Below are positions 211-5,509 of a DNA stretch of 5,548 nt, one piece after another. The notes under the pieces are model-generated. The model saw only the letters and a program-made list of their open reading frames with translations. It searched no databases and had not been told where the DNA came from. This DNA comes from a bacterium (GTDB lineage: Bacteria; SZUA-182; DTGQ01), in the NCBI GenBank assembly GCA_023512255.1, contig JAILZY010000148.1, positions 1 through 5,548 of the forward strand, in the 5' to 3' direction. Every line of letters starts with the position of its first letter. Position 1 is the stretch's first letter. A program made the position numbers and the translations under genes.

Positions 211-3200
211 ATGAGCCAAAACCTTGAGGGCGAGAAAAAAATCTTTTGCCTTGGGATTGATATCGGATCAATCAGTGCCGATTTTGCCCTCGTTGATCAG
301 GATCGTAACATTGTCAAGACCTCATATCATCGAATAAAAGGGCAGCCAATCCCTAAGACCCTTGAAGTTTTAAAGACAGAGTTTGTCGATTTCCTGGCTC
401 AAGAGTCAGTCAATCTGTCCTTTACTGGCAGTGGTGGACTGCTCCTGAGTCAACTGCTGGATACCCATTTTATCAATGAAATCATTGCTCAGATGAAAGC
501 AGCTATCCTGCTTCATCCTGAGGCCAGAACCATTATTGAAATCGGGGGTGAGGATTCTAAGCTCATCCTGCTCGACTACCAGCAGTCTTCGCAATCTTTG
601 GTGCTGAAGGATTTTGCCATGAATACCATGTGCGCTGCAGGGACCGGCTCGTTTTTGGATCAGCAGGCCTCGCGGCTTGGGATATCAATTGAGGAAGAGT
701 TTGGAGAGCTGGCCATGAGGTCAAAAAATCCGGCCCGGATTGCTGGACGGTGCAGCGTTTTTGCCAAATCGGATATGATTCATCTCCAGCAGGAGGCCAC
801 CCCAGACTATGATATCATCGCTGGGCTCTGCTTGGCTATGGCCAGAAACTTCAAGGGAAATATTGGCAAGGGAAAGGAGTTTCAAAAGCCTATCCTATTT
901 CAGGGGGGTGTGGCCGCCAACAAGGGGATGGTGAGGGCTTTTGAGACCCTGTTTAACTTGGCTCCAGGCGAGCTGATCATCCCGCGATATTACAATTGTA
1001 TGGGAGCCATTGGAGCGGCTCTGGTCGCTCTTGAAAACCCGCGGCCTATAAGGGGAGGCGAGGTTATAGAAAGGATAACCGACTACTTGGCTAAGGAGCG
1101 CCAGAAAGCCTCATCCCTGCCGCCGCTGCGCCTTGGCGCTTATAAATATCAGGCAGCATCTGATAGCAATAAAGATGAGGGGGAATCATACTCTCCTAAG
1201 CCAGGATCTTCTCAGCCGGTCGGCGGCGAGGGAGAGCTAATTGAGGCCTATTTGGGTATTGATGTCGGATCGATCAGTACCAATGTGGTGGTGATCGACA
1301 GCCGCGGAAGGGTTTTGGCCAAACGATACCTGATGACTGCCGGGCGGCCAATTGAAGCTGTTCGCCGAGGGCTTGATGAAGTTGGGCGGGAGGTAGGAAG
1401 CCGGGTGCGGATCGTGGGCGTAGGCACGACTGGATCGGGAAGATATCTAATCGGCGATTTTGTGGGTGCTGATATCATCAAAAATGAGATTACAGCCCAG
1501 GCCAAGGCAGCCGCGGCCGCAGATCCCCAGGTTGATACCATCTTCGAGATCGGCGGCCAAGATTCTAAGTACATCAGTCTTGATCAGGGTGCGGTTGTGG
1601 ATTTTGAAATGAATAAGGTGTGTGCTGCCGGAACAGGCTCCTTTCTGGAAGAGCAGGCAGAAAAGCTTGGGATTAATATCAAGGAGGAGTTTGGCCGCTT
1701 GGCCCTGTCTGCTTCCCATCCAGTCAGTATGGGTGAGCGCTGCACGGTATTTATGGAGTCTGACCTTGTTCACCATCAACAAAATGGTGCAACTAAGGAG
1801 AATCTGGTGGCTGGCCTCAGCTACTCGATTGTTCATAACTATCTCAACCGAGTGGTGGCTGGCCGAAAGATTGGGAATCGAATCTTTTTTCAGGGGGGAG
1901 TTGCGGCCAACAAGGGAGTGATCGCCGCCTTCGAGCAGGTCCTGCAAAAGCCGATCATTGTTCCCGAGCACCACGAGGTTACCGGCGCTATTGGAGTAGC
2001 TCTGATCGCTCAGGAGGAGCGGAAGCTGTGGACCCAGAGTAAATTCCGGGGATTTGACCTAAGCCAGCGGCGCTATGAGATTGAAAGCTTCGAATGTGCA
2101 GGATGCGCCAATCATTGCCAGATTAAGAAGGTGGTTCTCGATCAAGATCGGCCACTATTCTATGGCAGCCGCTGCGATCGCTATGACGAAAAAAAGGCCG
2201 ACAAGCCACAAGCTCACCCCGTGGATCTTTTTGCCTTCAGAGCGCGGGAGCTTCATCGGCAGTATCTTGCCTACTCCTTGGCAGAAGCCCCCTACTCCTC
2301 TGCCGCGGCCAGGCCGCGGGTAGGGCTCCCTTTATGCCTCTTTTTCCATGAACTCCTCCCTTTTTGGCGGACCTTTTTTGAAGCCTTGGGATGTGAGGTC
2401 GTTCTCTCTCAGAACACAAATAAAGAGATCATCAATCAGGGGGTTCAGGTAGCGGTTGATGATACCTGCTTTCCGATCAAAGTGGCCTATGGACATATCC
2501 ATAATCTCATCCGGCAGAAGATAGACTATCTCTTTTTACCCAGCATCATCAATATGCCGACCGATCAGAGAGGCATCCACAACAGCTTCAACTGCCCCTA
2601 TGTGCAGACTATTCCCTACACGGCGGCTTCGGCCATCAATATCGAGCAGACAGGGATAAGGCTTTTGCGGCCTGTGGTTTTCTTGCGGGGAGGGATTAAG
2701 TCGATCCGAAAAACCCTCATCCAGCTTGGCCAGGAGCTTGGCCGCTCAGAGCGCGACTCGCTTCAGGCCACTGTCCAGGCTCAGGCCGCTCAGGAGGGTT
2801 TCTATCGTAGCCTCCAAAAGAAGGGACAAGAGGTCATCTCTGCCGCGGTTTCCGACCGGGAAAGGGTTATGGTTTTAATCAGTCGGCCATACAATGGTTG
2901 CGATTTTGGGCTTAACCTTGAGGTCCCTAAGATCTTTCGCGAAATGGGCTTTCTGATCATCCCGATGGATTTTCTCCCCCTCCATCAGCATCAGATCGCT
3001 GAAAGCTGGCCTAATATGTACTGGCGATATGGCCAGAGAATCCTGAGTGCAGCCCGCTTTATACGCGAGAGGGAAAACTTTTTCGCTATCTATCTAACCA
3101 ATTTCAGTTGCGGTCCTGACTCTTTCATTACCCAGTTTTTCCAACACGCGATGAGAGGAAAGCCTTACCTGCAGATCGAGGTCGATGAGCATAGCGCCGG

Positions 3201-4602
3201 TGCCGGAATCATCACCCGCTGCGAGGCCTTTGCCGATAGCCTGCGAATGAGGAGGCAGCCAGTCTCATCACCGGCGGCGAGAAGGGAGGGGCAGCAGATG
3301 GGGCAAGAGGACTATTGTGAGGCCTGCGAGCATAAGCCTTCAGCAGAGCGGCTCAAGCATTCTTTGCGCCGTGAGACCTATGCTCAGCGCACGCTCTACA
3401 TTTCTCATATGTCAGAGCATGCCCATGCCCTGTGTGCTGCCTTTCGATCTCAGGGGGTGATGGCCGAGGTTATGCCAGAGTCTGATGAGCAGACGCTCCA
3501 CTTTGGCCGTATGTACACCTCTGGCAAGGAATGCTTCCCCTGCCTGATTACTACTGGGGACATGGTCAAGATTACCCGCTCAAGTCAATTTGATCCCCAA
3601 AAGAGCGCCTTTCTCATGCCCTCCGGCGATGGCCCCTGTCGGTTCGGACAGTATCACCAACTGCACCGGCTGGTCCTTGATCGGCTAGGGTTTTCTGAAG
3701 TGCCTATCTACTCTCCCACTCAGGGGGAAACCTTCTACCGCGAGTTAGGTATTGTGGGAAAAAGATTTATTCGCCTGGCCTGGCAGGGGATTGTGATGGT
3801 CGATTATCTTGAGAAGTGGCTTTTGCGGAACCGACCCTATGAAAGCTCTGTGGGTGAAGCAGAAAGGCTGTATAACCGATGCCTCAACCTGCTCTGTCAG
3901 ACCATTGAGACAAGGGGTGAGGCATGGTCGGCTATCGACGACATCCTATCAATTCTTGGCGAATTTCACCGAAAGCCAAAGACAAAGCCGCGGCCTATGA
4001 TCGGGATTGTCGGTGAGATTTTTGTTCGATCAAATCGCTTCAGCAACAACAACTTGATCCGCCAGATAGAGGACCTTGGGGGAGAGGTCTGGATGTCGCC
4101 AATTACCGAGTGGTTTCACTATATCAACTATACCAGCAAGATTCACAGCCTGGTCAATCGGAATTTTAAAAACCTGCTGTCAACCACCATTAGGGACTTT
4201 CTGCAAAAAAAGGATGAGCGCAAGATCCATCGGCTGCTCTGCCCGCTTATCCCTGATGGCCAAGACCCTTCAGTCGAGCAGCTGCTTGACAACAGCCGTC
4301 CCTACCTGCACCCTTCCTTTGAGGGTGAGGCCATATTGAGCATTGGCAAAGCTATAGATTTTGCCGCTAAGAATATGGCTGGATTGATCAATGTCATGCC
4401 CTTTACCTGTATGCCTGAAATCGTCGCCCAAAACATTCTGGTGGGGCTCAGCCGGATCTTCGATGTTCCGGTGCTGACCTTCATACTTACCGACCAAACG
4501 GGGGAAGCGGGGTTTGAAACCCGGGTGGAAGCCTTTTTAGACATCCTCAAAGAACGGAAGCTCGCGGAGGTTAAGCAACCATGGCAAACTTCTTGGGAAT
4601 AG
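211..4602 (+). CDS. Tandem acyl-CoA dehydratase activase fused to DUF2229 / dehydratase-like halves
   Basis: This 1463-residue protein is, by family knowledge, a cytoplasmic ATP-driven electron-transfer protein; its substrate is unknown. Domains in order: ASKHA-fold activase 1 (about residues 12-275; GIDIGS, IGGEDSK, CAAGTGSF with Cys141, GRC with Cys181, FQGGVAANKG); a low-complexity linker (276-346); activase 2 (347-600; GIDVGS, GVGTTGSG, IGGQDSK, Cys471, Cys511, FQGGVAANKG); a Cys-x2-Cys-x3-Cys-x18-Cys motif (629-655); dehydratase-like half A containing the DUF2229 signature (702-1012; Cys753, Cys795, Cys967); a linker with another CxxC (1036-1039); half B (1055-1450; Cys1108, Cys1143, Cys1400). 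In HgdC-type activases the two conserved cysteines of each monomer hold one [4Fe-4S] at the dimer interface, so the two domains here could form an internal pseudo-dimer. Domain 1 is the more divergent copy (SAD after the first GS motif, FTGSGG in place of GVGTTGSG). No signal peptide or membrane segment is seen. Length fits the long DUF2229 fusion family (about 1400 residues). The family assignment is secure; the reaction is not. Confidence 0.93.
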   Translation: MSQNLEGEKKIFCLGIDIGSISADFALVDQDRNIVKTSYHRIKGQPIPKTLEVLKTEFVDFLAQESVNLSFTGSGGLLLSQLLDTHFINEIIAQMKAAILLHPEARTIIEIGGEDSKLILLDYQQSSQSLVLKDFAMNTMCAAGTGSFLDQQASRLGISIEEEFGELAMRSKNPARIAGRCSVFAKSDMIHLQQEATPDYDIIAGLCLAMARNFKGNIGKGKEFQKPILFQGGVAANKGMVRAFETLFNLAPGELIIPRYYNCMGAIGAALVALENPRPIRGGEVIERITDYLAKERQKASSLPPLRLGAYKYQAASDSNKDEGESYSPKPGSSQPVGGEGELIEAYLGIDVGSISTNVVVIDSRGRVLAKRYLMTAGRPIEAVRRGLDEVGREVGSRVRIVGVGTTGSGRYLIGDFVGADIIKNEITAQAKAAAAADPQVDTIFEIGGQDSKYISLDQGAVVDFEMNKVCAAGTGSFLEEQAEKLGINIKEEFGRLALSASHPVSMGERCTVFMESDLVHHQQNGATKENLVAGLSYSIVHNYLNRVVAGRKIGNRIFFQGGVAANKGVIAAFEQVLQKPIIVPEHHEVTGAIGVALIAQEERKLWTQSKFRGFDLSQRRYEIESFECAGCANHCQIKKVVLDQDRPLFYGSRCDRYDEKKADKPQAHPVDLFAFRARELHRQYLAYSLAEAPYSSAAARPRVGLPLCLFFHELLPFWRTFFEALGCEVVLSQNTNKEIINQGVQVAVDDTCFPIKVAYGHIHNLIRQKIDYLFLPSIINMPTDQRGIHNSFNCPYVQTIPYTAASAINIEQTGIRLLRPVVFLRGGIKSIRKTLIQLGQELGRSERDSLQATVQAQAAQEGFYRSLQKKGQEVISAAVSDRERVMVLISRPYNGCDFGLNLEVPKIFREMGFLIIPMDFLPLHQHQIAESWPNMYWRYGQRILSAARFIRERENFFAIYLTNFSCGPDSFITQFFQHAMRGKPYLQIEVDEHSAGAGIITRCEAFADSLRMRRQPVSSPAARREGQQMGQEDYCEACEHKPSAERLKHSLRRETYAQRTLYISHMSEHAHALCAAFRSQGVMAEVMPESDEQTLHFGRMYTSGKECFPCLITTGDMVKITRSSQFDPQKSAFLMPSGDGPCRFGQYHQLHRLVLDRLGFSEVPIYSPTQGETFYRELGIVGKRFIRLAWQGIVMVDYLEKWLLRNRPYESSVGEAERLYNRCLNLLCQTIETRGEAWSAIDDILSILGEFHRKPKTKPRPMIGIVGEIFVRSNRFSNNNLIRQIEDLGGEVWMSPITEWFHYINYTSKIHSLVNRNFKNLLSTTIRDFLQKKDERKIHRLLCPLIPDGQDPSVEQLLDNSRPYLHPSFEGEAILSIGKAIDFAAKNMAGLINVMPFTCMPEIVAQNILVGLSRIFDVPVLTFILTDQTGEAGFETRVEAFLDILKERKLAEVKQPWQTSWE
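2303..2319. repeat. Perfect 17-base G+C-only palindrome inside the fusion gene
   Basis: CCGCGGCC and GGCCGCGG are perfect inverted arms around a single A. In mRNA this could fold into a six- or seven-base-pair all-GC hairpin with a loop of five or three bases. It encodes the Ala/Arg-rich hinge (around residues 698-703) between the four-cysteine motif and dehydratase-like half A. A role in slowing ribosomes at a domain boundary is possible; alternatively it is just GC-rich alanine and arginine codons. Confidence 0.35.
3282..3300 (+). promoter_or_regulatory. Possible internal ribosome site and in-frame ATG between the two halves
   Basis: AAGGGAGGGG at 3282-3291 is followed by six bases and an ATG at 3298-3300 that is in frame (Met1030). 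Sequence and spacing are at least as good as the gene's own start. It falls in the non-conserved linker between dehydratase-like halves A and B, so initiation here would give a separate 434-residue half-B protein. It may be active, or a relic of a former gene boundary. The purine run also encodes ARREG, so chance is not excluded. Confidence 0.3.
4566..4570 (+). promoter_or_regulatory. Ribosome binding site of the third activase
   Basis: GGAGG lies ten bases before the ATG at 4581 and inside the last codons of the large gene. It decides the start at 4581, because the first conserved motif (LGIDVGS) begins only four residues later. Confidence 0.75.
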
Positions 4603-5021
4603 ACGTCGGCAGTGTGACGACAAAAATTGTGCTGATTGACGCAGAACATAACATTTTATTTGATACTTACCTTCGAACCGAAGGAGGGCCCATCCACGCA
4701 ATCCAGCGCGGCTTCAAACAGCTTTACGAGACGGTAGGCGAGGCTGTGGTTTCAGGTGTTGGCACCACTGGGAGCGGGCGCCGCCTGGCCGGCATTATGG
4801 CAGGAGCCGATATTGTAAAAAATGAGATAACGGCACATGCGGTGGCCGCCCGGTGGGTAGAGCCCAAAGTTGGTACCGTAATTGATATCGGCGGACAGGA
4901 TTCCAAAATCATCTGGATGCATGTTCGTGGCTCACTAGGAATCATTCTTGGGTACTTCTGGAGACTGGTAAGACAGCCGTACGTGAAAGATTTGATTTGG
5001 CGCATGAATTGGGGCATTTAA
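4581..5021 (+). pseudogene. Truncated single-domain acyl-CoA dehydratase activase (third copy)
   Basis: The frame opens with a clear BcrA/BadF/HgdC-type activase: GIDVGSVTTK near residues 6-15, GVGTTGSGRR near 60-69, KNEITAHA, and DIGGQDSKII ending at residue 111. It then leaves the family abruptly at about base 4914. The last 35 residues (starting WMHVRGSLG) are out-of-frame reading of the following peptidase fragment, ending at TAA 5019-5021. A complete activase has about 250-330 residues; the CAAGTGSF cysteine, the second cluster cysteine and the FQGGVAANKG motif are all missing, so the product cannot hold the [4Fe-4S] cluster or complete the ATP site. It overlaps the large gene by 22 bases and has its own Shine-Dalgarno, so the intact ancestor was very likely translated with that gene and served the same system. 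G+C (about 60% in the line counted) matches the large gene, not the sequence after the break. Confidence 0.85.
4908..4920. other. Junction between two unrelated broken genes
   Basis: The last activase codons that fit the family are ATC ATC at 4908-4913. The first peptidase codons that fit are GAT GCA from 4916, in a different frame. The switch therefore lies within a few bases of 4914. No inverted repeat, target duplication or insertion-sequence end is visible beside it. Either a deletion or illegitimate recombination in the genome, or an assembly chimera, would look like this. Confidence 0.75.
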
Positions 5022-5509
5022 TCCTGCATCCATGGTTAGAGCCGAACAAGATCTTAAACAGGGAAACGAACAGAAGAATCGAAGAGGAAGCGCATCGTTT
5101 TGCTGAGGCCTTTCTAATGCCAGCGGATTCATTTGCGAAGGAAGTACTAGTGCCTTCTCTGTCACAGTTACAAGTTTTGAAGTCGAGATGGAAAGTGTCC
5201 ATTCAAGCAATGATTAGGCGGCTGTTTCAGTTGGATATCATCGATGAACATACGTACAAGAATATGAATGTACAACTATCGGTAAAAGGTTGGAAACGGT
5301 TTGAGCCACTAGACGATCAAATTCAAAAAGAGGAGCCGTCCACCCTGAGAGATTCGATCGAATTGCTTATCGAAAACCAAATAAAAACACCTGAAGCCAT
5401 ATTGTTGGACTTAAAGCTTCCACAAGACGAGGTCGAAACTCTATGCTCGTTACCCGCGGGAAGGTTGAATCCTCAGAAGCTTGGGTTGCAGATTCGTCGC
5501 TTGAAATGA
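4914..5509 (+). pseudogene. ImmA/IrrE-family zinc metallopeptidase, C-terminal fragment
   Basis: From base 4916 to the TGA at 5507-5509, 197 residues fit the ImmA/IrrE (COG2856) family. These cytoplasmic peptidases usually cleave or relieve a repressor, as with ImmA and ImmR of ICEBs1. The fragment opens with DACSWLTRNHSWVLLE, then RERFDLAHELGHLILHP with the zinc-binding HExxH at 5003-5017, then EEEAHRFAEAFLMP, which supplies the usual third ligand (Glu) and the family's LMP signature. A helical C-terminal region follows. Relatives of this type are often about 350-390 residues with an N-terminal XRE helix-turn-helix; that part and the front of the peptidase domain are absent. The only normal start codon in frame before the HExxH is TTG at 4997, just two codons before it, with a weak GAAAGA upstream, so a functional product is unlikely. 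G+C is about 35-45%, lower than the left side. The gene normally travels in mobile or stress-response loci; the next gene overlaps its stop. Confidence 0.8.

Follow-up and report, generated by a model that had tools for sequence, protein, structure and literature searches.

The window analyzed here, a stretch of 5548 bases that makes up the entire contig G000:C7 in a genome of 172 contigs, encodes a large protein that we believe, with a probability of roughly 0.6, to be a member of a widespread family that joins an archerase-type donor to a dehydratase/reductase-type acceptor in a 2+2 fusion, with a 14-cysteine cluster scheme that would serve ATP-driven reduction. The ORF itself encodes two activase domains of the HgdC type, then a 4-Cys module and finally two dehydratase-like halves, referred to below as half A and half B (Table 1). 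A sequence-only reading of the window had proposed such a 2+2 order, two activase domains and then two dehydratase-like halves, and the Pfam domains, the folds and ~100 relatives all agree with it. The family is already present in databases as DUF2229 or "acyl-CoA dehydratase activase"; the literature that we searched contained no functional work on DUF2229 or on COG3580/3581.

Table 1. Features of the window, with residues numbered along the large ORF.
Feature	Nucleotides	Strand	Residues	Characteristics
Single ORF	211..4602	+	1463 aa	activase 1 - activase 2 - 4-Cys module - half A - half B
Activase domain 1	244..1050	+	12-280	cluster Cys141 and Cys181; GGED replaces GGQD as phosphate motif
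Activase domain 2	1243..2019	+	345-603	cluster Cys471 and Cys511; phosphate motif is the canonical GGQD
4-Cys module	2020..2226	+		C629-x2-C632-x3-C636-x18-C655, between activase 2 and half A
Half A	2314..3261	+	702-1017	Cys753, Cys795, Cys967; DUF2229 and weak HGD-D match
Half B	3376..4560	+	1056-1450	Cys1108, Cys1143, Cys1400; HAD/BCR/DCCP fold family
Foreign 3' end of ORF	4416..4602	+		apparent split-type half-B tail, directly after PFTCMP
Separate single-activase gene	4581..4916	+		5' end only; overlaps ORF stop; foreign segment

Domain composition and conserved cysteines

A Pfam search of the ORF identified two BcrAD_BadFG activase domains (PF01869, 276.7 bits in two stretches, cut-off 31.5), a DUF2229 domain (PF09989, residues 703–921, 211.7 bits against a gathering score of 29.4) and a sub-threshold HGD-D match in half A (PF06050, residues 929–1011), which at 26.9–27.9 bits was just below its gathering score of 28.4. 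TIGR00241 also matched in two stretches (324.3, cut-off 125.4), and the equivalog models for class I benzoyl-CoA reductases (bzdQ, benz_CoA_red_A/D) scored far below their cut-offs, e.g., 163.6 of 578 for benz_CoA_red_A. There were no Pfam matches above cut-off to the 4-Cys module, and no Pfam or NCBIfam family matched half B (nt 3379–4560, residues 1057–1450); the analyses below now assign a fold and predicted cluster sites to these C-terminal ~395 residues.

Both activase domains align with 1hux and 4eht at the cluster cysteines, which HgdC and its homologs carry in their CAAGTG and CxVF motifs, and the nucleotide motifs are kept in the two domains alike. The GGED of activase 1 (residues 110–117, nt 538–561) has its E in 86% of relatives and the GGQD of activase 2 (residues 446–453, nt 1546–1569) is found in 100%; the branches of activase 1 are also longer than those of activase 2 in our tree, and the ATP sites of the two domains may be non-equivalent. 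In this tree, which includes long branches and whose bootstrap support is not fully settled, activase 1 is separated by one branch from activase 2, on whose side the single activases also fall, a topology that fits an origin of the pair by a single duplication and fusion.

Fourteen cysteines (4+4+3+3) are invariant or nearly so in ~104 aligned relatives. Six of these had been singled out as landmarks from the sequence, and all six are at the residues given for them (C753 in TCFP, C795 in NCPY, C967 in CGPDSF, C1108 in ECFP, C1143 in GPCR and C1400 in CMPEIV); the 104 relatives deviate at these half A and half B positions only by a few gaps and by a single A in place of C1400. The eight further invariant cysteines are C141, C181, C471, C511, C629, C632, C636 and C655, the last four forming the 4-Cys module, which is probably a [4Fe-4S] (or Zn) site.

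The mosaic 3' end of the contig

Up to ~nt 4415 the window shares 78–79% identity with the corresponding gene of a congener (G001); this similarity is then lost over a few bases, immediately after PFTCMP. The first residue past this junction, E1403, is G in 94% of relatives, and the last ~61 residues are 53% and 49% identical to the split-type half-B tails of two other loci (L145 and L143, respectively). The ORF overlapping the stop codon codes for the N-terminal 112 residues of a single activase, a gene order as in split operons such as L143. Since the contig switches lineage near nt 4416, these comparisons indicate that the last ~61 residues of the ORF are not native and represent the split-type tail of another lineage, and we caution that the last residues of the window ORF should be treated as stemming from other DNA. 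At a second junction (~4917) the activase breaks off into an ORF at 4997–5509 (M78 peptidase/spr1629-type repressor-antitoxin), and the segment 4917–5548, with its lower G+C (~0.43), is likely from a third lineage. Searches of 12 genomes from two split-version lineages did not identify the source of the foreign 3' segment, nor did the rest of the window's genome yield the native 3' end of the gene. We consider misassembly the likelier cause of the junctions, and recombination a less likely alternative. The architecture described above is independent of this foreign tail, because ~100 intact relatives carry it.

Halves A and B are paralogous and share a fold

When we aligned profiles of half A (residues 700–1020) and half B (1056–1450) with hhalign, using ~99 relatives, the match reached 96.7% in global mode (E-value 4e-10) and 77% in local mode (2e-5), and paired C753 with C1108, C795 with C1143, and C967 with C1400. 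Reversed profiles gave no more than 4%, and twenty block-shuffled profiles no more than 42.6% (global) and 20.6% (local), so the order of landmarks that the two halves had been said to share is above chance, with all three cysteine pairs aligned. The stretch at ~890–923 does align with that at ~1264–1300, although the "E-x-G-x-x-V/I" pattern used to describe both is loosely worded. As for the AG..TR.EAF landmark, its half-B copy (~1430–1442) is in the foreign tail, and genuine fused relatives have YDG...TRLEAF.

Profile alignment of the HGD-D family with both halves gave 92% and 96% (reversed controls ≤0.5%). Direct sequence comparison of the halves with the solved structures gave no more than weak matches short of significance, located at the C-terminal Cys of DCCP and HadC, and hhalign against BzdO/HgdA-like sequences alone gave no match, these being four sequences, too few to mean much. 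The AlphaFold2 models of residues 618–1463 (99 sequences; pLDDT 90.3, pTM 0.90) and of half B alone (109 sequences; pLDDT 93.8, pTM 0.93) both found their best fold matches in the same family, with 3o3m_D the top match common to the two halves. For half A these were HadC (Z 15.1), BzdN (14.6), DCCP (13.9) and HadB/BzdO (10.8–11.6), with the first unrelated structure at 7.3, and for half B HadC (14.5), DCCP (13.9), BzdN (13.5) and HadB/BzdO (9.4–9.8), with the first unrelated structure at 7.7; the HadC/HadB and BzdN/BzdO chains were told apart by chain length and PDB molecule names. The similarity to solved structures is remote (Z 14–15, rmsd 4–5). Because the HAD/BCR/DCCP family heads both lists, far above unrelated folds, the models indicate that halves A and B share the fold of its subunits. 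Different folds in the two halves, named in the sequence-only reading as an outcome that would speak against it, are ruled out by the fold matches of both models.

One predicted cubane per acceptor half

The three cysteines per half had been likened to the cubane sites of dehydratases, which the invariant triplets support, and also to double-cubane proteins, a resemblance that is not supported as the distal cysteines are missing. Known double cubanes have six cysteines within one subunit (Cys36/73/100/263/293/327 in BzdN; PMC11971306), and the six cysteine positions of a DCCP-like reference, L123, match those of BzdN. In profile alignments to HGD-D relatives, C753 and C1108 fall on C73 of L123, and C967 and C1400 on its C324, while the middle cysteines are offset from its C100 by 4 columns (half B) and ~14 columns (half A). 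C36, C261 and C291 of L123 were without conserved counterparts in this alignment, the residues there being H713/S1068, Y1307 and an unconserved C1344. In half B the cysteine spacing (35/257) is near that of the single-cubane site of BzdO (Cys95/128/380, spacing 33/252; PMC11971306), and a stand-alone half B, that of L143, contains three cysteines in total. Because the distal-cubane cysteines lack counterparts and the spacing of half B is BzdO-like, each half likely has one three-Cys cubane. A protein of the double-cubane [8Fe-9S] type, as DCCP and BzdN are, with one such cluster per half or one shared between them, would account for the ranking of DCCP and BzdN near the top of the fold matches for either half, but we regard it as extremely improbable and have set it aside on cysteine count and positions: six cysteines are needed per subunit (PMC11971306) against three invariant ones per half, the counterparts of C36, C261 and C291 are not conserved, and the L143 half B could not supply more than its three.

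Donor and acceptor modules as separate genes

The usual form among the loci that we fetched is the fused one of ~1400 aa, and there are also split versions. In two loci (L019 and L021) the gene is split after half A; in L143 three consecutive genes code for the two halves (A and B) and for a single activase that ends in a 4-Cys tail, and L150 has these same parts on one stretch. In Monoglobus the same three modules occur in a row as separate genes (UL127_RS11265-11275), named by NCBI, in order, "acyl-CoA dehydratase activase-related", "2-hydroxyacyl-CoA dehydratase" and "acyl-CoA dehydratase activase". With HGD-D, a split-type half B scores 29.6 bits, above the gathering score, and the split half B of L143 exceeds the cut-offs for both DUF2229 (6e-10) and HGD-D (7e-7); thus both halves and the dehydratases are linked by sequence alone. 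Modules encoded by separate genes in other genomes are what one would expect of a donor dimer and an acceptor dimer before fusion, and the existence of separate half A, half B and activase genes, together with the folds and the invariant cysteines, backs the earlier suggestion that the two dimers are here combined in one polypeptide.

Gene neighborhoods

No stable operon partner was identified across ~85 sampled loci, in which the neighbors were heterogeneous (RmuC, YfiO, metallo-beta-lactamase, ComEC and others, with haem biosynthesis/cytochrome assembly genes in some deltaproteobacterial MAGs), and given this heterogeneity we dropped the reading of function from nearby genes. Nor were there consistent CoA-metabolism or amino-acid fermentation genes in the neighborhoods sampled. 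The combination of a widespread family, usually without a fixed operon partner, and of halves that both resemble relay-type beta subunits would suit a maturation factor or ATP-driven reductive activator in which halves A and B do no more than pass electrons on to the true acceptor, another protein. We consider such a role quite unlikely, since no partner was found in the neighborhoods sampled and one site of half A (D970, S971, D992, H994, T1002, R1003 and E1005) is strictly conserved and looks to be beyond the needs of a relay. In several deltaproteobacterial MAGs (L042–L055), genes for glutamyl-tRNA reductase, porphobilinogen deaminase and a cytochrome c assembly protein are located divergently upstream of the fused gene; this gene set may reflect shared ancestry only.

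Proposed mechanism and comparison with known systems

In known systems the [4Fe-4S] cluster of the activase lies between the two subunits of its dimer, and a shape change powered by ATP passes an electron to the beta and then to the alpha subunit of the acceptor, the clusters of which are ~12 Å apart (PMC11574389). We infer that in the fused protein activase 1 and activase 2 would pair within the chain with one [4Fe-4S] between them (C141, C181, C471 and C511), that the 4-Cys module would hold a further cluster, perhaps the point of electron entry, and that halves A and B would associate into a pseudo-heterodimer in which each half has its own three-Cys cubane. By binding and hydrolyzing ATP, the two activase domains would then drive single low-potential electrons into the cubanes of the two halves, where the substrate would be reduced.

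There is no specific indication that this substrate is a CoA ester, because both halves are nearer to the beta-type (HadC, BzdN) than to the CoA-binding alpha-type subunits (HadB, BzdO) and no CoA metabolism is evident among the neighboring genes sampled. Tentatively, and at somewhat less than even odds, we speculate that the protein represents a further HAD/BCR/DCCP branch, a self-contained, CoA-independent, ATP-driven low-potential reductase on a single chain, with one cubane per acceptor half, a built-in 4-Cys cluster as electron inlet and a substrate new to the superfamily. A true one-chain 2-hydroxyacyl-CoA dehydratase or acyl-CoA reductase, which would bind a CoA ester and carry out ketyl-radical dehydration or Birch-type reduction, appears rather unlikely to us; while the HAD-like fold, the three-Cys sites and the NCBI names of relatives ("acyl-CoA dehydratase activase", "2-hydroxyacyl-CoA dehydratase") are all in its favor, it has against it the nearer match of both halves to the beta-type (15.1 vs 10.8–11.6 and 14.5 vs 9.4–9.8), the HGD-D score just below cut-off in the window protein, and sampled neighbors without consistent CoA or amino-acid fermentation genes.

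The proposed 2+2 reductase resembles HgdAB/HgdC and HadBC/HadI in its activase cluster cysteines, the fold of its acceptor pair, one predicted three-Cys cluster per acceptor subunit, and the use of an ATP-driven donor with an acceptor, and differs from them in being one polypeptide with a duplicated, diverged activase, an extra 4-Cys module and neither half specially alpha-like. With DCCP and its reductase DCCP-R (PDB 6eno, 7yyl) it shares the fold of both halves and an ATP-driven activase of the same family; however, DCCP, for which acetylene, azide and hydrazine are substrates, has six cysteines per subunit for its [8Fe-9S] cluster, whereas the ORF has three per half and is without the distal-cubane cysteines. 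The class I benzoyl-CoA reductases (BzdNOPQ, MbdONPQ), with two different activases (P, Q) and two different acceptors (N, O), likewise have a 2+2 composition, but they consist of four separate proteins, BzdN has a double cubane, and their aryl-CoA substrate is defined. The DUF2229-type "acyl-CoA dehydratase activase(-related)" genes of Monoglobus and Paraclostridium belong to the ORF's own family, with fused or split modules; Monoglobus UL127_RS11265-11275 differs in its three genes, and Paraclostridium MTR78_RS17005 in the absence of the 4-Cys module and the half-B cysteines. ATP-driven reduction below the usual biological potential range is confined to few enzyme types, and a common single-gene version of one of them, in which a single chain keeps donor, relay and acceptor at a 1:1 ratio, would lend itself well to testing.

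Distribution of the family

Some match to the ORF was present in 55 of 97 related genomes (plain activases counted), with long versions in ~30. A scan of one genome per species yielded at least 573 confirmed stretches, the best 80 of which include those of Deltaproteobacteria, Nitrospirae, Planctomycetota, Zixibacteria, Armatimonadota and other MAGs. A relative of 1282 aa on a Paraclostridium bifermentans plasmid (L172, 4189–8037) keeps the activase and half-A cysteines and is without the 4-Cys module and all half-B cysteines; therefore, not every member of the family can carry all clusters. Its neighbors include genes for a Crp/Fnr regulator, an ABC transporter, cupins, a hemerythrin and a hydroxylamine reductase. 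DUF2229 is also matched in Thermotoga maritima and Lactococcus lactis, as well as in Thermus composti and Deinobacterium chartae, two species in which one would not expect an oxygen-sensitive low-potential enzyme. In Streptococcus mutans, SMU_0438c, which is alike by annotation name, is up 2.2-fold on manganese depletion (PMC6952196).
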